From: Caldilineaceae bacterium SB0661_bin_34
Lineage (GTDB): Bacteria; Chloroflexota; Anaerolineae; Caldilineales; Caldilineaceae
Reading direction: 5' to 3'
NCBI GenBank assembly: GCA_009841145.1
Contig: VXMJ01000028.1
Coordinates: forward strand, 24,540 to 84,848
Length of the DNA: 60,309 nt
The notes under the pieces: model-generated
Seen by the model: only the letters and a program-made list of their open reading frames with translations
Databases searched by the model: none
Told to the model about the DNA's origin: nothing
Shown: positions 38,848 through 53,416 of the stretch, one piece after another
How the letters are laid out: each line of letters opens with the position of its first letter
How positions within the stretch are numbered: position 1 is the stretch's first letter
Made by a program: the position numbers and the translations under genes

Positions 38848-39345
38848 TTGGGTCCCTTTGGCAACGGGGAAATCCCTGATGCGCGGCGTCCCAATCCTCA
38901 ACGCAGCCTGCGGGCTATCGCGGACCTAGAGGAGCAGGTGCCCCGGGACCATCCGTTACGGCGGATCAAGGCCATGGCCGAGGCAGCCCTGGAACGGTTG
39001 TCGCCGGAGTTCGACCGCGTGTACGCCTAGGTGAGACGAGCCTCGGTACCGCCCGAGCGGCTGTTGAAGGCCTCACTGCTGATCGCCTTGTACTCGGTGC
39101 GCAGCGAGCGCGCCTTCTGCGAGAAGCTCGAATACAACCTGCCCTACCGCTGGTTCCTGGACAGGGACCAGCTGGAACGCAGCTTCGACACGACGGTCTT
39201 CACCAAGAACCGGGCGCGGTTGCTGGCGCACGACGCGGACTGGTCCTGTTCGACGAGGTCGTGTGGGCGGCCGACAAGGAGGTACTGCTGTCAGACGAGC
39301 ACTCGGCATGGACGAGCCTCTGATCGAGGCCACCGCTAGTCTCAA
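38848..39345 (+). pseudogene. IS5/IS1182-type transposase N-terminal remnant
   Basis: The code reads PRDHPLRRIKAMAEAALERLSPEFDRVYA, stop, then RRASVPPERLLKASLLIALYSVRSERAFCEKLEYNLPYRWFLD, and after a frameshift near 39240 DEVVWAADKEVLLSDEH. This is the first half of a DDE transposase of the IS5 superfamily, with one stop codon (39028) and at least one frameshift. It breaks off at the D-aminoacylase gene, so the catalytic core is missing. Confidence 0.8.
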
Positions 39346-39386
39346 GAGCTTCCGGCCCAAGGAGGGACCGCCTCCTTTCGAGCCAA

Positions 39387-40997
39387 TCAGGATTGGCCTG
39401 CTGCCAGCACCTGGCCGGTGCGTGAACCAACATATGCGCCGTTGTCCACAGCCAAGGCGCCATTCACAAACACATGGGAAACCCCCGCGGCAAACTGGTG
39501 CGGGTCCTCGAAAGTGGCACGATCGGCGACAGTCTCCGGATCGAAAACCGCAATGTCCGCCTTGTATCCGGGTTGAAGCCGTCCCCGGTCCCGGAGAAGC
39601 AGACGATCGGCCACCTGTCCGCTCATTTTGTAAACAGCCTCCTCCAGCGTGAGGATCGATTGTTCGCGCACGTACCGTCCCAATACCCTGGCATGGGCTC
39701 CGTAGGATCGGGGATGTGGACGACCGGCGCCAACACGGGTTCCAGGTGTCAGGGCCAAGCCATCGGAACCCATCATGCCCAAGGGGTGGGTAAGGAAGGC
39801 GCACATGTCTTCTTCCGTGCGATAGAAGAAGATGATGGTCAGACGGGCATCATCAAGATCCATCAGGGTCAGGGCGGCATCCACCGGTTCCAGATTCATC
39901 TCATGGGCGGCCTCCTGAATGGTCAAGCCTTCGTAGGGTTTGGCCGCCTCCGTGTGGGTTGTACTGACCAGCAACCGATCCCAGAGCCAAGGCCAACCGC
40001 GAAACAGGCCTTCCTCCAGCATGTCGTCCCGGATTTGCCGACGCGTGGCCGGCGTACGAATACGGGACAGTAGGGCCGCAGGACCGCCCGACTGAGCCCA
40101 TGTGGGCATGCACTGGCTGAAACCGCTGCTGCTGGCGTCATAGGGATAAACATCGAAAGTTACGTCATGGCCGGACTTGACGGCATCCTCGCATACCTCA
40201 ATCACGGTATCCGCCTCGCCCCAATGCCGGGGATCATTGACGGCCATATGGGCCACCTGGACCGGTACCCCCGTCGCCAACCCAATATCCACAGCTTCCT
40301 GGACACCTGTAATGTGGTAGCCGGACCAACAGCGAATGTGGCTGGTGTAGATGCGTCCGGGCCACCGGGCCATGGCCTCGGTCAGGGCGACAATCTCGGC
40401 CGTGTCGCCATAAGCACTGGGAGGCAGGGTCAGGCCTGTTGAGAAACCGAAGGCTCCTTGGGCCATGGCCTGATCCACCTGGTAGTTCATCGCCCGGATC
40501 TCGTCTGCCGTGGCCGGACGATCCTCGAATCCCACGACCATGCCCCGTACGGCACTATGGCCCACCAGAGGAGCGATGTTGATAGCCAGCCCAATCTCCG
40601 TAGCCGCCTGCCGGTACCCTTCCAGGTCCTGCCATGTCCACGGAACGGTATCGCCGAAGACGCTGCTGAGTGTCTCACGCAGGGTTTCCGTTCTTTCGGG
40701 CGAGATGGGGAAAGGGCTATAGCCACAGTTTCCGGTCACTTCCGTGGTGACTCCCTGCAGAATCTTGCTGAGGCCATGGGGCTCCGCCAACAGGGTCAGA
40801 TCCGAATGGGTATGGATGTCAATGAAACCAGGGGCCACCACTTGGCCGGTTGCATCGACCGTTCGGCCAGCTGTCGCATCACCCAGGTTCCCGATGTCGG
40901 TAATGACCTCATTCCTGATGCCCAGGTCGGCCTGGCGTGCCCCGGCACCGGTACCGTCCACGAGCGTTCCATTACAGATCAGTGTGTCGAACATCAT
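39387..40997 (-). CDS. N-acyl-D-amino-acid deacylase (D-aminoacylase family)
   Basis: A 536-residue amidohydrolase. The metal-binding motif PGFIDIHTHSD is near residue 58. A Cys in EVTGNCGYSPFP, YTSHIRCWSGY, VQVAHMAVND and the late acidic residue in GMMGSDGLAL complete the D-aminoacylase pattern. It should cut N-acyl groups from D-amino acids, as in turnover of bacterial wall or peptide material. The start at 40997 has GAGGAGACTTGA upstream. It is transcribed away from the large ATPase/helicase gene and runs tail to tail with a transposase remnant. Confidence 0.88.
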   Translation of the reverse strand: MMFDTLICNGTLVDGTGAGARQADLGIRNEVITDIGNLGDATAGRTVDATGQVVAPGFIDIHTHSDLTLLAEPHGLSKILQGVTTEVTGNCGYSPFPISPERTETLRETLSSVFGDTVPWTWQDLEGYRQAATEIGLAINIAPLVGHSAVRGMVVGFEDRPATADEIRAMNYQVDQAMAQGAFGFSTGLTLPPSAYGDTAEIVALTEAMARWPGRIYTSHIRCWSGYHITGVQEAVDIGLATGVPVQVAHMAVNDPRHWGEADTVIEVCEDAVKSGHDVTFDVYPYDASSSGFSQCMPTWAQSGGPAALLSRIRTPATRRQIRDDMLEEGLFRGWPWLWDRLLVSTTHTEAAKPYEGLTIQEAAHEMNLEPVDAALTLMDLDDARLTIIFFYRTEEDMCAFLTHPLGMMGSDGLALTPGTRVGAGRPHPRSYGAHARVLGRYVREQSILTLEEAVYKMSGQVADRLLLRDRGRLQPGYKADIAVFDPETVADRATFEDPHQFAAGVSHVFVNGALAVDNGAYVGSRTGQVLAAGQS

Positions 40998-41335
40998 TCA
41001 AGTCTCCTCTGCCCGGTTCCCGACAGGAGTGTACGGAACCGGTCCTTAGGATAGGCGCGTGGCAATACCCATACGCCGCGTTCAGTCGGCCGACCCTCTG
41101 CCATCGGGACCGCCTGCCCAGACTTTGCCAACGTCCGGGGGTTGGAGTCTGAAGTGAGAACGGTGTCCAACCGGTGTCCGTGTTCAAGCCAAACAGGGCT
41201 CCAGACCTCGAGTGAGAGACCTTGGATTCCAGGCCCCAACACTACAATCCCTTCAACGATTGTCGGGCATCCGTTACGAGGCTCTGTGCGACAAGTAACG
41301 ATGCGCCATATTTCATCAGTTCACCAGTCAGCAGC
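40998..41335. other. Divergent promoter region of D-aminoacylase and the ATPase/helicase gene
   Basis: No gene seen. TTGGAT (41222) and TACAAT (41243), 15 bases apart, are a weak promoter pair directed toward the large gene. Apart from that nothing stands out. Confidence 0.3.
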
Positions 41336-44300
41336 ATGTCCCAAGTAAGTAGACGCAAGCACAAGCAGCGGGAACAGTCGAACCAACATGACAGTCAGGC
41401 TGCGCCACCTTTGCTGGACAAGATTCCCGCCAAGGTGGAAGTGGACAAATCCGTCTGGACAGGGCCGGCCGGCGATCTGGGAAGCTACATCCAGGACCGA
41501 ACGCGGCGCACGCTGGATGCCTACCACAAACAACCCGATCTGGTTGAGGAACACGCCAACCTCGAACACGACACTGCACGTGGCGGATATGCCCACAGGC
41601 AATTGTTCGAGTTGATCCAGAACAGTGCCGACGCTCTGGCCGATTCGATTGGCGGCCGCATCAACCTGAAGTTGACCGACACTCACTTGTACTGTGCCGA
41701 TGATGGCCAAGCAATGAGCCAAGACGGTGTGAGAGCGTTGATGTTCTCGCACCTGTCTCCCAAGCGCGGCACCGCGGAAATTGGACGCTTCGGAATGGGT
41801 TTCAAGGCTGTGCTGGGTGTGACGGATTCACCGGAGTTCTTCAGTCATTCAGGTTCGTTCAGGTTTGACCGGACCGAAGCGTCAAATCTGATTCGGTCAT
41901 TTGTCCCCAATGCCGAACGGTGTCCGGTACTGCGGTTGCCTTACCCCATGGACCCTTGGCCCGAAATGGAGTGGGACCCCAACCTACATGAGTTTATGGG
42001 GTGGGCGACCAACATTGTGCGGTTGCCCTTGAATCCGGGTGCCCATAACGATTTAGAGACCCAGTTCAAAGCCTTTCGTGCAGAGTTTCTGCTATTCGTC
42101 AACCATGTATCGATGCTCTTCCTCCAGCAATCAGATACAGACGAACGATTGATTCGAGTCCGAAGCGAAGACGGAATTCACACCCTATTCGACAGAGATG
42201 AGACATCCCAATGGATGTTGTACAGCACGGTCCACAAACTGTCCGAACAGGCTAGGAATGACAGTCGAAGTCTGGACGATGCTACGGAGGTGCCAATCGT
42301 TTGGGCGGCACCCCTTGAGCAGCTCCACCAGCCAGGTGAATTCTGGGCATTCTTCCCGACGCTGACCAACAGTCTGCTGGCCGGAATCCTAAATGCTCCG
42401 TGGAAAACCAACGAAGACCGCCAGAATCTACTGACAGGTGAATACAACGAGGAACTGATTGGGGCTGCTGCCGAACTGATCGCCGCGTCCATCACCGACC
42501 TGCCATCCCGCGAAGATCCCAGTCGTCACTTAGATGCCCTGCCTCGCAGACAGGAGGCTTGGGACAACAAACACAGCATCCTCCTACGCTACCAGCTCAA
42601 TGTTGCACTTAGGAGCCGACCGATTGTTCCCGACCAACAATGCAAACTTCGCAGACTGTACGAGTTGAACTACCAACCGGAGTTCCTAACTCTGGAGAGA
42701 CCACACGCCTCGGAGGCTTTGGAGATCTGGGGAACGTTTGACCAACGACCCACGCACTGGCTTCACCATAGTGCGCTGACACGTATCCGCCTAGCCCGTT
42801 TGACCGCCATTGAGCGGTTGGACGAACATGGCAAGTCGAAACCCATGCCGAGAGCCGAAGTCAGTAAGTGGCTGGAACAGTTGGTACAAGCTGCTCAAGG
42901 CCAATCTCAGAAAATCAAAGCATCTAAAACAGCAATCCGGGCCGCGTCCAAAGTTCAGGACTACCAGGCTGCAAACGGCAGACAGCCAATTGAACGATTG
43001 GGCAGCATTGTGCTCACGGCCGCCGGATCCTGGGCAGAACCGAACCCGGAGCGGTTGTTTTTGAGTGGAGACAAGGACAATCGGGCACCGAATTCGGTCC
43101 ATCCAGAGGTTGAAAAGTGTTCTTCAACGCGGGCGGCATTGGAATGTCTGGGTATCAAGCCACGTTCGAAGAGTTTGACATTCAAGACAATTGTAGCCAC
43201 TGTATTGGACTCCTTTGAACGGTTTAAAAGGCAGTTGAACCTCGAACGTTGGCAACAAGATGCGGACTGGGAGAAGCATGTCAGCACTGTCGGCGCAAAA
43301 TGCAGCACACTTTGGTTCACGTCCAGACTCTTGGCACCCAAAGAGGCTGCCGACATCATCAGGAACGATCGTGCAAACTGGCGCGATGCTCTGCCAGTGC
43401 GTGTCAAGAGCGGATTCTGGTGTCCCCTCCCCAATGTCCTGTTGCCCGGTGAAATCGTACCGAGCAACAGCAGTCGAGATGCAGACGTCGCGGTCGATAC
43501 TGATTACCACAGTAACGACGTCGAGTTGCTGAAGATACTGGGTGTGGTTTCAGCACCGGTTGCCGAACAGGAATTGTCTGCCCATCACTTTGACCAGTAT
43601 TTGGCGTCCTGCCGTTCCGAATTCCAGACCTTCGCGCAGTCGAAAGTTGGGCGCAAACCCCGCTGGGACCGTCTCCAGTTTAGTGCCACCGTCTGCTCTG
43701 GGCCATTGGATCCGATGGCATCCTTGTCCGAGGAGAGTCGCATCCGCTACACCTGGCGTCTGCTTGACTTTGATGCGACCTACACGGAATGGGCTATGTC
43801 CCATGAGACGCAGGATCAGTACGGGAATGTTTCCTTCCCGTCGCCAGCAATAGACATACTGCGCGAATATGGATTGGTGCGGACGGCAAAGGAAGTAGCC
43901 AAGCTCAGCGACGGCGTTGGCAAGTCACCTGCCAATATGGAAGTTGTCGAGACCCTCCTATCCCACCGCAAGGCCAGCCAGATCAGACAGGCATTCGACC
44001 TTCAGGTTGACCTGTCCGCGGAAATCGAACCGATAGGCGAGGAGGCAGGGGTGCCGATCGTTGATGTGTGGCCTGCATTGAAAAATTACTTGACACTGGA
44101 GGAGATGACACTCCAGCTTGTGCGCTGCGAAGGGTTTCGTCATAGGTACGGGACGATGGCACAGGTTGAACTGGCCTGTATCCGCATAGACAAATCACTG
44201 TACGTGACCCAGCAGGCCGAGGAGACGGAAGAACTTGCCGCTGTCCTCAACGAATTGGGCAAGTCATTCACCAAATCCCTCCTGAGCGACATCGTGAATG

Positions 44301-45907
44301 GTTCGGACCCGCTTGAAGTTCAAGAGGAGATAGAAGCTATCAGGCAGTGTGGAACCGATGAAGAACGGTTGCTGGCTGCAGTGGGTATCGAAGGTCTCAA
44401 GCGACATCTGCCAGCCTCCCTGCCGCGGATGTTGGCTGGCCAGCTAGGCAACACGGCAGGAATCGAACTCGCCCGGGCGGCGATGGCCAAGTTCCACACC
44501 GGTGCTCTGGAGGCATACAAGGACGACTTCCAACGCTTGCATCCTCCGCGCATGTGGGCAGGCTCCGAAAGAGCTGTCCGATTTGTGCAGTCCCTTGGAT
44601 TTGATGAGGAATGGGCTGGACATAGAAACACCAAGCGTGATCCGTTTCTCGAAGTGACCGGTCCCAGAACGCTGCCCCCATTGCACGAATACCAGCGAAC
44701 GGCTGTACAGAGAGTGCGCAACCTTGTGGCATCCAACGGCGCAGGACCCCATCGTGGGATGTTGAGCATGCCAACAGGTTCCGGCAAGACACGGGTCGCA
44801 GTGCAGGCCATCGTCGAATCGATGCGGGATGGCGAGCTACATGGCGGGATCCTTTGGGTGGCGGATCGGGACGAATTGTGCGAACAGGCAGTGGAAGCAT
44901 GGCAGGCAGTCTGGGCCTCCGAAGGAGAACAAGCCAGCACCCTCAGGATTTCGAGATTGTGGCATGGAAACAAGCGGCCACTGCCTACAGGCAAGAGACA
45001 TGTCATTGTGGCCTCGATCCAAACCCTACACAGCCGGTTCTCGAGGCGATCAGAAGAATACCGCTTCCTCTCGGATTTCAACCTTGTGGTAGTTGACGAG
45101 GCACACCGGTCGATTGCTCCTTCCTATACCTCACTTCTGCAGGAATTGGGTTTGACCCGGTGGTTCGGAGACCATGAACCAATCCTGATCGGCCTGACGG
45201 CAACTCCCTACCGGGGAATCAACGAGGAGGAGACACGGCGTCTCCGAATCCGTTACGGAAGGCGACGATTGGACCACGGGGTCTTTCCGACGGACGATCC
45301 AAACGAGGTCATACAATTCCTTCAGTCGGACCGCATTCTGGCCATGGCAGACCACGCCACTATCGCCGGAGGGGAATTCGAACTGTCTGACGACGAACGT
45401 GCGTTGGCCGAGCAGAATCCTTGGCTCCCTGATAGCGTCCAAGAGCGGATCGCGCGGGACGAAGTGCGCACACGACGTATCGTGAACGAATACCTGCACA
45501 AGGTAAATCCGAACTGGCCCACCCTGATCTTCGCGACCTCCGTCGAGCATTCTGAAATCGTGGCGGCCCTGCTCAACGCGGAAGGGATCGTGGCGAGGGC
45601 GGTGAGCGGAAAAACTGAAACCTCCATCCGACGCCAGGTGGTTCAGGAGTTTAGGTCAGGCGAGATCAAGGTCCTGGTCAACTACGGAGTCTTTCGCGAG
45701 GGATTCGATGCGCCGAAGACCCGGGCCATAGTTGTGGCCCGGCCTGTGTACAGTCCGAATCTGTACTTCCAAATGATTGGCAGGGGTCTGCGAGGCGTGA
45801 GGAATGGAGGCAATGAGCGGTGTCTCGTGCTCAACGTCAAAGACAACATTCGCAACTTTGGCCAGGATCTCGCGTTCACGGAGTTGGACTGGCTGTGGGC
45901 AGATTGA
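41336..45907 (+). CDS. Hsp90/sacsin-like ATPase fused to a superfamily-2 helicase
   Basis: A 1523-residue protein. Residues about 76-200 are a GHKL ATPase of the sacsin/Hsp90 type: N-box LFELIQNSADAL, then YCADDGQAMS near 120 and GRFGMGFKAVLG near 150. About 900 residues of helical, unfamiliar sequence follow. From about residue 1110 there is a complete SF2 helicase: HEYQRTAVQ, Walker A PTGSGKT (near 1145), DEAH in VVVDEAHRS (near 1252), LTATP, and the second lobe with VREGFDAP-like and IGRGLRG (near 1482). ATG at 41336 is the first credible start. The paired ATPase and helicase resemble known anti-phage architectures, and broken defence genes surround it. The function is not established. Confidence 0.85.
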   Translation: MSQVSRRKHKQREQSNQHDSQAAPPLLDKIPAKVEVDKSVWTGPAGDLGSYIQDRTRRTLDAYHKQPDLVEEHANLEHDTARGGYAHRQLFELIQNSADALADSIGGRINLKLTDTHLYCADDGQAMSQDGVRALMFSHLSPKRGTAEIGRFGMGFKAVLGVTDSPEFFSHSGSFRFDRTEASNLIRSFVPNAERCPVLRLPYPMDPWPEMEWDPNLHEFMGWATNIVRLPLNPGAHNDLETQFKAFRAEFLLFVNHVSMLFLQQSDTDERLIRVRSEDGIHTLFDRDETSQWMLYSTVHKLSEQARNDSRSLDDATEVPIVWAAPLEQLHQPGEFWAFFPTLTNSLLAGILNAPWKTNEDRQNLLTGEYNEELIGAAAELIAASITDLPSREDPSRHLDALPRRQEAWDNKHSILLRYQLNVALRSRPIVPDQQCKLRRLYELNYQPEFLTLERPHASEALEIWGTFDQRPTHWLHHSALTRIRLARLTAIERLDEHGKSKPMPRAEVSKWLEQLVQAAQGQSQKIKASKTAIRAASKVQDYQAANGRQPIERLGSIVLTAAGSWAEPNPERLFLSGDKDNRAPNSVHPEVEKCSSTRAALECLGIKPRSKSLTFKTIVATVLDSFERFKRQLNLERWQQDADWEKHVSTVGAKCSTLWFTSRLLAPKEAADIIRNDRANWRDALPVRVKSGFWCPLPNVLLPGEIVPSNSSRDADVAVDTDYHSNDVELLKILGVVSAPVAEQELSAHHFDQYLASCRSEFQTFAQSKVGRKPRWDRLQFSATVCSGPLDPMASLSEESRIRYTWRLLDFDATYTEWAMSHETQDQYGNVSFPSPAIDILREYGLVRTAKEVAKLSDGVGKSPANMEVVETLLSHRKASQIRQAFDLQVDLSAEIEPIGEEAGVPIVDVWPALKNYLTLEEMTLQLVRCEGFRHRYGTMAQVELACIRIDKSLYVTQQAEETEELAAVLNELGKSFTKSLLSDIVNGSDPLEVQEEIEAIRQCGTDEERLLAAVGIEGLKRHLPASLPRMLAGQLGNTAGIELARAAMAKFHTGALEAYKDDFQRLHPPRMWAGSERAVRFVQSLGFDEEWAGHRNTKRDPFLEVTGPRTLPPLHEYQRTAVQRVRNLVASNGAGPHRGMLSMPTGSGKTRVAVQAIVESMRDGELHGGILWVADRDELCEQAVEAWQAVWASEGEQASTLRISRLWHGNKRPLPTGKRHVIVASIQTLHSRFSRRSEEYRFLSDFNLVVVDEAHRSIAPSYTSLLQELGLTRWFGDHEPILIGLTATPYRGINEEETRRLRIRYGRRRLDHGVFPTDDPNEVIQFLQSDRILAMADHATIAGGEFELSDDERALAEQNPWLPDSVQERIARDEVRTRRIVNEYLHKVNPNWPTLIFATSVEHSEIVAALLNAEGIVARAVSGKTETSIRRQVVQEFRSGEIKVLVNYGVFREGFDAPKTRAIVVARPVYSPNLYFQMIGRGLRGVRNGGNERCLVLNVKDNIRNFGQDLAFTELDWLWAD

Positions 45908-46317
45908 TCCCGGGCTCTTGGCACAGAGCTTGTTGGTCAGTCTCCGGAAGACGTCCACACCAAACGGGCGACTGACCTGCGCCGGAACGCGTGATTGAGA
46001 CGCGGTACAGGCATGATCTTGGTCTTGTCGGTCTTTTTGCCACAAGCAGCTGTCGGTCCGCGCCCCTCGCCACATGTCTGTCCATCCAAGTTCAACACCA
46101 AGTCACGGTGCACCTCATGTCTTCTATGCATCGCCGAGGTTCCAAGCTGGTGCCACCCATATGGCCGGCACAGTTGGAGTCATGGTCAGCCACCACAACC
46201 AACGATGCCTGACTGCGTCGAGAACCCTTCGTGAAGCCGTCCTGTATACAACGCTGGCCTACTTGACATTGAGTGGCCTTGTAAGCCAGTCTTGAACCAG
46301 CCAGAACCAATCAACCG
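45908..46317. other. Stretch without a recognisable gene
   Basis: Short open frames on both strands match nothing I know. It separates the helicase gene from the Phd antitoxin gene and may be worn mobile DNA. Confidence 0.35.
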
Positions 46318-46587
46318 ATGAGTACCATGATCAAGAAATGGTCTGTCCAGGATGCAAAGTCAAGGTTCAGCGAGCTTCTCGACACCGCCCTTGCCGAAGG
46401 TCCGCAGATTGTGACAAGACGAGGCGTGGAAGCCGCGGTGCTCCTTCCGATTGAGCAATGGCGGAGACTGGAGCGGATGACCAGGCCCAACCTCAAGGAA
46501 TCGCTCCTCACTCTCGAAGCGCGGACCGACGACCTCGTGCCGCCACGACAGCGGCATCGCCGTAGAGTGCCGATGGCTGTGGAGTAA
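46318..46587 (+). CDS. Phd/YefM-type antitoxin
   Basis: An 89-residue protein with the Phd/YefM N-terminal DNA-binding fold: KKWSVQDAKSRFSELLDTALAEGPQIVTRRGVEAAVLLPIEQWRRL. The C-terminal tail, which would wrap the toxin, ends in a basic run. Four bases later a PIN toxin gene starts, in the normal order for such modules, but that gene is cut after about 23 codons. Start is ATG 46318 or ATG 46327. The antitoxin is intact and now without its toxin. Confidence 0.88.
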   Translation: MSTMIKKWSVQDAKSRFSELLDTALAEGPQIVTRRGVEAAVLLPIEQWRRLERMTRPNLKESLLTLEARTDDLVPPRQRHRRRVPMAVE

Positions 46588-46661: not shown

Positions 46662-46771
46662 CGCTCCAACACATAGCGAATCCGCACATCGGCTATCGGG
46701 CGACTGTTTTCCTGGGCCAGATTCCGCAGTTGATGGTCCACGGATGCCGCCAGGCTCCTGGCCCTGCTCAC
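46662..46771 (-). pseudogene. AbiEii-type nucleotidyltransferase toxin, N-terminal stub
   Basis: GTG at 46771 overlaps the AbiEi stop (GTGA), the normal coupling. The frame reads SLAASVDHQLRNLAQENSRP and then IRYVLERFL, the opening helices of AbiEii toxins. It stops matching at about 46662, where the PIN stub from the opposite strand begins. The catalytic GS-x10-D-x-D core is gone. Confidence 0.65.
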
Positions 46772-47355
46772 AGCACAGCCTCCAGGTAGGGGCGCATCAC
46801 CTGTTCCATGCGACAGGCGCGGGCTTGGCGGAGCAGTTCATCCACACGCCGCGGCCCGCTGCAGTAGTCGTGCAGGGCCTCCAACACGATGTCCATGCCG
46901 ACACGGTTGCGGAACTTGAAGCAGTCCGCCAGTGTTTTCTCGCGGGAGTAGATCTTCACGCACACCCCGTCAAGCATGTGCGTCTCGACGCCGGAAGCGT
47001 AACTCCTGGACGAAAAACTGTAGGCCGTCACGGGCGGCGAAGTACCCCGTGGTCTGTGGTCGCCGCGTTGGACCGCCACCGACACGGAACTCGGAATGTG
47101 GGTGGCCATGTCGTGGAAGAACAGGGCCGACTCCAGACACACCACGGCCCGCGGAGCGCGCAGCGCGGCCACGGCCAAGTCGGGATGCTTGAGAGGATGC
47201 AGGTCGGTCGCCACAAACACGCCGCGCTCAAGGCGTTCGGCTTTCCCTTGTGCTTCCAGGGCGTACAGTGCGGCCGGCGGGATTCCGAGACGAACCGCTT
47301 CGGACACGCGCAGTGGGCGGTTGAGTTTGCGCAGTGCGATTTCAGACTTGGACAT
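46768..47355 (-). CDS. AbiEi-type antitoxin of a type IV toxin-antitoxin system
   Basis: A 195-residue protein. The N-terminal winged helix reads NRPLRVSEAVRLGIPPAALYALEAQGKAERL and GVFVATD. The C-terminal antitoxin domain has VCLESALFFHDMATHIPSSV and SREKTLADCFKFRNRVGMDIVLEAL, hallmark blocks of AbiEi. AbiEi represses its own operon and neutralises the AbiEii nucleotidyltransferase, giving phage abortive infection. The toxin gene that follows is only a stub, so the system cannot act. The antitoxin frame itself shows no damage. Confidence 0.88.
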   Translation of the reverse strand: MSKSEIALRKLNRPLRVSEAVRLGIPPAALYALEAQGKAERLERGVFVATDLHPLKHPDLAVAALRAPRAVVCLESALFFHDMATHIPSSVSVAVQRGDHRPRGTSPPVTAYSFSSRSYASGVETHMLDGVCVKIYSREKTLADCFKFRNRVGMDIVLEALHDYCSGPRRVDELLRQARACRMEQVMRPYLEAVL

Positions 47356-52015: not shown

Positions 52016-53416
52016 ATGCCCAACAGCCCCGATTCTACAACGCAGGCCCCGGACACCGTCCACCGCACGGTGCGCCTGCGCCTGTATCCCGGCGATGCCG
52101 CTACGGGTATCCTGCTGACGGCCATCGCCGGGGCCTGCCGTTACGTCTGGAACCATATGCTGGCCGACTGCGAGTGGCGGTACGCGCGCTGGAAGGAAAT
52201 GCACGTGCCCGCTCTCAACTGGCCGGAGGTCAGGGAAGGCAAGACGGCATGGGCCAAGTCCATCCGCAGGAAGATGGGACCCGGTCCGTCCACGAGCTTC
52301 TTCACCCTGGGCCAGCGGTTCACGGAACTGCGCAACGACCCGGACCACGCCTGGCTGAAGGAATACCCCTACGCGGTGGTCCGCTACAGCCTGAAGTACC
52401 TGGCCGACGCCTACGCGCGGTACAAGGCAGACCCGAAGAACGAGGGAAGGCCCCGGTTCAAGGCCCGGCACTTCACCGTGCCGGCGTTCACCATTCCCGA
52501 GGCCGTCCGGATAGACGGGGACCGGCTGCACGTGCCCAAGGTCGGTTGGCTGCGGCTGGCGGGATCGAACCTGTACGCCGGATGCAAACCGCTGACCGTG
52601 CGCGTGCGCATGGAAGGCACGGAACAGCACCCCAAGTGGTATGCGTACGTCTGCTACGACGTGCCTGCGGAGCAGGTGAAGCAGCCTGCCGCGGACGGCG
52701 CGTTGGGCCTGGACCGCAACGTGGGGCAGGCCACGGACAGCGACGGCACCGTGTACGCGATGCCCGACACGGACAAGCTGGACGCGCAGATCGCCCGCAA
52801 GCAGCGGGAGCTGAGCCGCAAGCAAGGCTGGGGTCCCAAGGACCGTCGGCCCAAGTCGAACCGGGGCAGGCGCGTGAACGGGCAGTTGAACAAGCTGCAG
52901 CGCAAGGGGGCGCGCAAGCGCGACGATGCCACGCACCAGGCCAGTCGCAAGCTGGCGGACACGGCGCACACCGTGGTGGTGGAGGATCTGAACACGAAGG
53001 GCATGACCCGGTCGGCCAAGGGCACGGTAGCGAAACCCGGCAGGCAGGTCAAGCAGAAGTCGGGGCTCAACCGCAGCATCCTGGCCAGCGGCTGGGGCTC
53101 CTGGGAGCGCAAGCTGGCGTACAAGGCGGGCGAACTGCGGAAGGTGAATCCGGCCTACACGTCGCAGACGTGCAGCCGGTGCGGCCATGTTGACAAGTCA
53201 AACCGGCCGTCGCAGGCGGTGTTTGCGTGCGGGGCCTGCGGGTTCCGTGCGAACGCCGACCACAATGCGGCAATCAACATTTTGGTGCGGGCGGGACTTC
53301 CGTGCGTGCCCGTTTCGGCCCGTGGGACAGGGGCGGCTGCACGGCGAGGGGCGATCCCGTGGGGGTCCCCGACGACCCGTGAACGAGATGGGCCGGCTGT
53401 CCAGTCCGACCTATAA
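52016..53416 (+). CDS. tnpB: TnpB RNA-guided nuclease, intact (IS1341-type element)
   Basis: A 466-residue TnpB with every key part present. RuvC-I Asp is in GALGLDRNVG (near residue 228), RuvC-II Glu in VVVEDLNTKGM (near 323), the zinc finger is CSRC and CGAC, and RuvC-III Asp is in NADHNAAINIL (near 418). The N-terminal helix-rich and WED-like parts are full length. TnpB cuts DNA matched by a guide RNA made from the 3' end of the element. No TnpA is adjacent, so the element depends on a transposase elsewhere. Broken relatives lie at 2040, 23187 and 53620. Confidence 0.93.
   Translation: MPNSPDSTTQAPDTVHRTVRLRLYPGDAATGILLTAIAGACRYVWNHMLADCEWRYARWKEMHVPALNWPEVREGKTAWAKSIRRKMGPGPSTSFFTLGQRFTELRNDPDHAWLKEYPYAVVRYSLKYLADAYARYKADPKNEGRPRFKARHFTVPAFTIPEAVRIDGDRLHVPKVGWLRLAGSNLYAGCKPLTVRVRMEGTEQHPKWYAYVCYDVPAEQVKQPAADGALGLDRNVGQATDSDGTVYAMPDTDKLDAQIARKQRELSRKQGWGPKDRRPKSNRGRRVNGQLNKLQRKGARKRDDATHQASRKLADTAHTVVVEDLNTKGMTRSAKGTVAKPGRQVKQKSGLNRSILASGWGSWERKLAYKAGELRKVNPAYTSQTCSRCGHVDKSNRPSQAVFACGACGFRANADHNAAINILVRAGLPCVPVSARGTGAAARRGAIPWGSPTTRERDGPAVQSDL
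53290..53415 (+). ncRNA. Candidate omega (guide) RNA region at the tnpB 3' end
   Basis: TnpB guide RNAs overlap the end of tnpB and run past it. Here the last 35 codons give a protein tail rich in Arg, Gly and Pro without domain character. The DNA, however, is conserved in the remnant at 23395-23450 (GCACGGCGAG, GGCGATCCCG, GACGA, CCGTGAAC). The right end of the element lies near 53415, so the guide would come from sequence just beyond it. Confidence 0.4.

Follow-up and report, generated by a model that had tools for sequence, protein, structure and literature searches.

In proteins of the GHKL family ATP drives closure and dimerisation, SF2 enzymes of the helicase type considered here move on nucleic acid, and Tiamat (TmtA) is a single-gene anti-phage system that consists of one large protein. 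In 2008 Iyer and colleagues described restriction operons in which a GHKL ATPase is paired with an SF2 helicase, each encoded by its own gene (PMC2292703). These MORC/paraMORC systems comprise nucleases and methyltransferases, often with a methyltransferase or Vsr beside the ATPase-helicase pair. In PbeABCD (CxC-DndE) the PbeA helicase carries a PLD (HKD) nuclease and is accompanied by DndE-type partners (PMC10853773, PMC6459918). According to one report, PbeABCD halts the replication of viral DNA without cutting it (PMC6459918), a claim that is disputed (PMC10853773). The NOV_C domain has been read as a nuclease domain (PMC3710099).

Here we analysed a stretch of 60,309 nucleotides from Caldilineaceae bacterium SB0661_bin_34 (the window), in which the initial annotation had described a sacsin/Hsp90-like ATPase and an SF2 helicase within a single 1523-residue chain. 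The open frame and the Pfam and NCBIfam profiles bear out this description, with the ATPase at the N-terminus and a complete ResIII/RadD-like helicase at the C-terminus (Table 1). We favour the ATG at 41336 as the start because it includes a basic N-terminal extension that is present in two homologues (L011 and L032) as well; no clear ribosome-binding site was seen upstream of it. The GC content of the gene is 55.9%, compared with 61.8% for the window. Both ATPase sites in the chain are intact by motif, and all of the catalytic motifs originally quoted are invariant or nearly so in an alignment of five full-length sequences (the window protein and four homologues).

Table 1. Features of the fused gene and its surroundings (window coordinates)
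Feature	Coordinates	Strand	Details
Complete gene for fused protein	41336..45907	+	open frame, 1523 codons/aa
Sacsin/Hsp90-type (GHKL) ATPase and following domain, TmtA-like	41480..42631	+	residues 49-432; PADLOC TmtA E 1.7e-56
ATPase-domain stretch matching 165-bp relics	41619..41783	+	80% (G206) and 76% (G117) DNA identity; E 2e-39 and 4e-30; same chromosomal site
Middle region, mostly without assignment	42632..44410	+	residues 433-1025; second TmtA model extends to 545
Helicase-associated segment common to some stand-alone helicases	44411..44680	+	residues 1026-1115; L023-L026 match from 1026-1072 onward (including by blastp)
SF2 helicase (PTGSGKT, DEAH, LTATP, GRGLRG), RadD/PbeA/HsdR-like	44681..45847	+	residues 1116-1504; Pfam ResIII and Helicase_C
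Variable segment, which three genomes of the same genus lack or keep only as a relic	41162..46247	.	flank comparison
D-aminoacylase-like flanking gene, backbone, outside the system	39387..40997	-	orthologue in G038 (98% aa identity) where the fused gene is lacking
Phd/YefM antitoxin flanking gene, backbone in two sister genomes	46318..46587	+	Pfam PhdYeFM_antitox; conserved in G206 and G117

Assignment of the N-terminal module draws on several searches. Pfam HATPase_c_3 matches residues 90-164 (E 2.6e-6), SACS matches residues 143-175 at a score under its curated cut-off, and the NCBIfam model of the sacsin N-terminal domain (NF047352; cut-off 50 bits) matches residues 88-168 with a score of 65 bits. 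An alignment-profile search of the PDB returned the N domains of TRAP1, Hsp90 and sacsin (E about 1e-4), and human sacsin SR1 was the best Foldseek match (E 1.2e-5) of a low-confidence model of residues 37-545, which was built from an alignment of 2-3 rows and has a mean pLDDT of 43. The closest likeness among described one-gene systems is to Tiamat, also one large protein with an N-terminal sacsin-type ATPase module. The likeness is confined to that module: the match covers only positions 10-400 of the 1538 in the TmtA profile, whereas our positive control, the TmtA-type protein L109, aligns over positions 6-1142 and carries a C-terminal NOV_C/DUF3883. No Pfam match to NOV_C/DUF3883 was obtained in the fused protein, which has its helicase in that place.

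The helicase module begins ahead of its core, at about residues 1026-1066, and the core matches Pfam ResIII (residues 1116-1293, E 2.3e-27) and Helicase_C (residues 1383-1486, E 1.7e-14). Although this module belongs to one broad group with that of PbeA, we recognised neither a PLD match in the fused protein nor PbeB, PbeC or PbeD partner genes in the window. The region between the two modules had been called unassignable, which holds for residues of about 545-1000 but not for its N-terminal part, where the TmtA match ends at residue 432 with the best model and at 545 with the second, nor for the helicase-side part. A Pfam search of the middle region, nuclease profiles included, gave no match, and no repair or transcription factor, which would have argued against a defence role, was matched there in the Pfam and NCBIfam profile searches. 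Nor did profile searches recognise a nuclease domain anywhere else in the protein. The predicted model of residues 541-1110 (again from 2-3 aligned rows) has a mean pLDDT of 35, too low for interpretation. With a distant relative (L040, below) included, only two acidic positions of the middle region are invariant, window residues 715 and 910, in a part of the alignment that is unsure; two such lone residues argue weakly against a conserved nuclease here. Internal repeats of the sacsin kind were considered and dropped, as hhalign between segments gave only trivial matches from overlapping ends.

We found four further full-length fused copies with 48-54% identity, one in a Dehalococcoidia record (L001), one in the family of the window genome (L011) and two in other families of the phylum (L031 and L032), as well as a partial fifth at the start of a contig (L033). 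Since full-length homologues of about 50% identity have the identical domain order, chance is excluded as the source of the fusion. A more distant fused relative (L040; 1568 aa, 31-32% identity) lies on an IMG/VR contig and was the only one returned by our scans of viral contigs. It adjoins a type I restriction operon, with HsdS, a protein kinase, HsdR and YgjP as neighbours, and from their nature the contig may be bacterial. Counting every kind, strong matches are thinly scattered: the class sample has them in 7 of its 396 genomes and the phylum sample in 10 of its 400, and the fusion occurs in fewer. The intact fused copies have no orthologous neighbour genes in common, which agrees with the earlier view that the gene stands alone, without a shared partner. 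The neighbours of L011, L031 and L032 are metabolic or without assignment, and most fused copies lie outside defence islands. A D-aminoacylase adjoins both the window gene and L032, and we rejected it as a common neighbour: genome G653 has five paralogues, and among them the neighbouring one shows the lowest similarity, indicating that the two are not orthologous.

Comparison with genomes of the same genus indicates that the fused gene is accessory, not housekeeping. Two sister genomes (G206:C52 and G117:C7) keep both flanks at 85-95% DNA identity with about 220 bp between them, compared with 5.1 kb in the window, and retain in that space only the 165-bp relic; it derives from the ATPase domain, with no helicase sequence in either genome. 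In a third (G038:C107) the flanks are kept within that range of identity and the fused gene is missing, with no relic seen. We had considered recent insertion into an empty site, and rejected it after the relic turned up; most simply, the gene was present in the ancestry of G206 and G117 and was then lost. Homologues mainly in conserved housekeeping positions would have counted against the initial annotation, and this is not the pattern observed, since neighbours are not shared and the gene is absent in sister genomes. None of the genes adjoining it in the window was recognised as encoding a methyltransferase or nuclease. Just downstream is an AbiEi-like antitoxin gene (46768-47355, minus strand) for which the sister genomes have no counterpart here; sequences related to the stretch occur elsewhere in G038. 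An insertion-sequence fragment at 38900-39375 has many copies (about 83-87% identity) in the sister genomes, one of which adjoins the L013 gene described below, and a frame at 52016-53416 (plus strand) resembles a putative IS605 OrfB/TnpB-type protein.

Each half of the fused protein also occurs alone. Relatives of the N-terminal half were found after Vsr and two cytosine methyltransferases (L014, which matches TmtA) and, on the Arthrobacter plasmid p2MP (L010), with a cytosine methyltransferase on one side and MzaB-, MzaD- and MzaC-like genes on the other; in the latter protein part of the middle region is conserved, to about residue 862. Relatives of the helicase accompany DrmA and DrmB in DISARM-like loci (L034 and L035), the second of which comprises DrmMII, DrmB, DrmA, a nicking-endonuclease/glycosylase-like gene and the helicase (L035:1678-10710). 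In other operons (L017, L037 and L038) the helicase is followed by a GHKL ATPase and then by a PLD-type protein, an order read by eye for L017 and L038 and profile-confirmed for L037, where the matches are an MzaB-like GHKL ATPase and a DrmC-like PLD protein, with SspB nearby. The same three genes, again profile-confirmed, stand beside a PAPS-reductase-family gene on a Mesorhizobium plasmid (L112), and some operons of this kind adjoin phosphorothioation genes. In L018 a GHKL gene alone is clearly seen (by eye) next to the helicase, and L036 also has one. These loci are not all independent, L034 and L035 being from one genus and L017 and L018 from one family. The neighbourhood survey suggested in the initial annotation favours defence islands for L040 and the relatives of each half but not for most fused copies. 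The plasmid operon at L010:6773-16977 looks like an MZA variant; MZA itself is a multi-gene system whose Z1 helicase is of another kind than that of the fused protein.

Other partners were seen for both modules. L109 has the same N-terminal module ahead of NOV_C/DUF3883, and the same-genus genome G038 has the helicase, 65% identical from residue 1101 on, behind about a dozen ankyrin repeats in a protein of 1094 aa (L013:1195-4479, minus strand). In these architectures a single sensor-like module is joined to various C-terminal modules, and a single helicase to various N-terminal ones. Compared with the MORC/paraMORC restriction systems, in whose type of operon relatives of the halves occur, the fused protein has the intact GHKL ATPase and the linked SF2 helicase but no recognised nuclease or methyltransferase alongside, and it is a single partnerless chain with a GHKL module of the sacsin type. 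That such modules otherwise occur in separate genes is true of the operons of Iyer and colleagues, but as a general statement is too strong, since Tiamat is already one gene with the same N-terminal module. We found no description of a sacsin-helicase fusion in the literature searched, which covered the minority of subscription papers. Judged from sequence, this is probably a variant of GHKL-helicase restriction and Tiamat-like systems, with known modules in an arrangement that we did not find described.

We propose that this accessory gene by itself encodes a defence system, a single protein whose ATPase gates a DNA translocase, and give this reading a probability of roughly two in three from the sequence comparisons. 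A defence role is probable because close relatives of each half lie in virus-defence gene clusters; the accessory nature of the gene and its intact motifs also speak for the one-gene defence system first suggested, whereas the position of most fused copies speaks against it. Sensing of an infection cue would fall to the sacsin/Hsp90-type ATPase together with its long extension, and ATP-driven clamp closure or dimerisation, as expected of the GHKL family, would turn on the SF2 motor at the C-terminus. This motor would then translocate along its presumed target, foreign or replicating DNA, and block or remodel it. Since no nuclease domain was detected and no partner gene travels along, we favour a protein that presumably lacks a nuclease of its own and either blocks the DNA uncut or recruits a nuclease of the host. 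Because the PbeABCD helicase is related and its mode of action is disputed, the question of block versus cleavage applies here too. More tentatively, and with rather less than even odds, the Hsp90/sacsin-type switch might gate the translocase directly and stop phage DNA uncut, as part of a modular family in which the sensor ahead of one helicase is exchanged (sacsin, ankyrin). Besides the genomic positions, it counts against defence that RadD-like helicases also act in DNA repair and that the middle region may hide a nuclease or other function.

Among other explanations, we consider it unlikely that a RadD-like helicase and a chaperone or mismatch-type clamp ATPase together serve host DNA in repair or stress, spreading horizontally without being directed at phage. 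RadD (YejH), a repair helicase, gives both the best NCBIfam helicase match, over the full domain (residues 1116-1504), and the best PDB match (6jde, E 8.5e-18 by phmmer), and MutL-type GHKL proteins act in repair. The RadD score of 116 bits is nevertheless far under the equivalog cut-off of 720, the helicase is joined to a sacsin-type ATPase, and a repair function sits poorly with the patchy presence, with the relic and loss in sister genomes, and with relatives of both halves in restriction-type operons. Somewhat less likely still is a fused restriction enzyme that cuts DNA like HsdR, Res and PbeA by means of a nuclease hidden in the middle region. Its helicase class is common to those three proteins and the separate versions are accompanied by nucleases (PLD, PD-(D/E)XK, Vsr), but the lack of any nuclease profile match, the two lone acidic positions and the want of an adjoining methyltransferase in the window all tell against it.

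It is very improbable that the gene is domestic or selfish without a defence role, for instance as insertion-sequence cargo. The window does contain insertion-sequence fragments close to the gene, and there is one beside L013, but no intact mobilising enzyme adjoins the gene in the window, and copies identical at about half of their positions have retained the catalytic motifs of two separate ATPases. If the defence reading is true, the GHKL-helicase pairing of restriction operons is here condensed into a single polypeptide, open to immediate cloning and testing, Tiamat's sacsin-type module is able to work with another effector than DUF3883, and a direct test of the role of the ATPase, namely gating of the motor, is on offer.

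Further genes were noted in records with individual fused copies. Upstream of the one in the Dehalococcoidia record are three tandem genes for putative nucleases of the Uma2 family (L001:5871-7646), the first of them confirmed by Pfam. Genome G653 has, in addition to its full fused gene, the C-terminal part of the helicase once more in truncated form (L039:7023-7661, plus strand; 65% identity).
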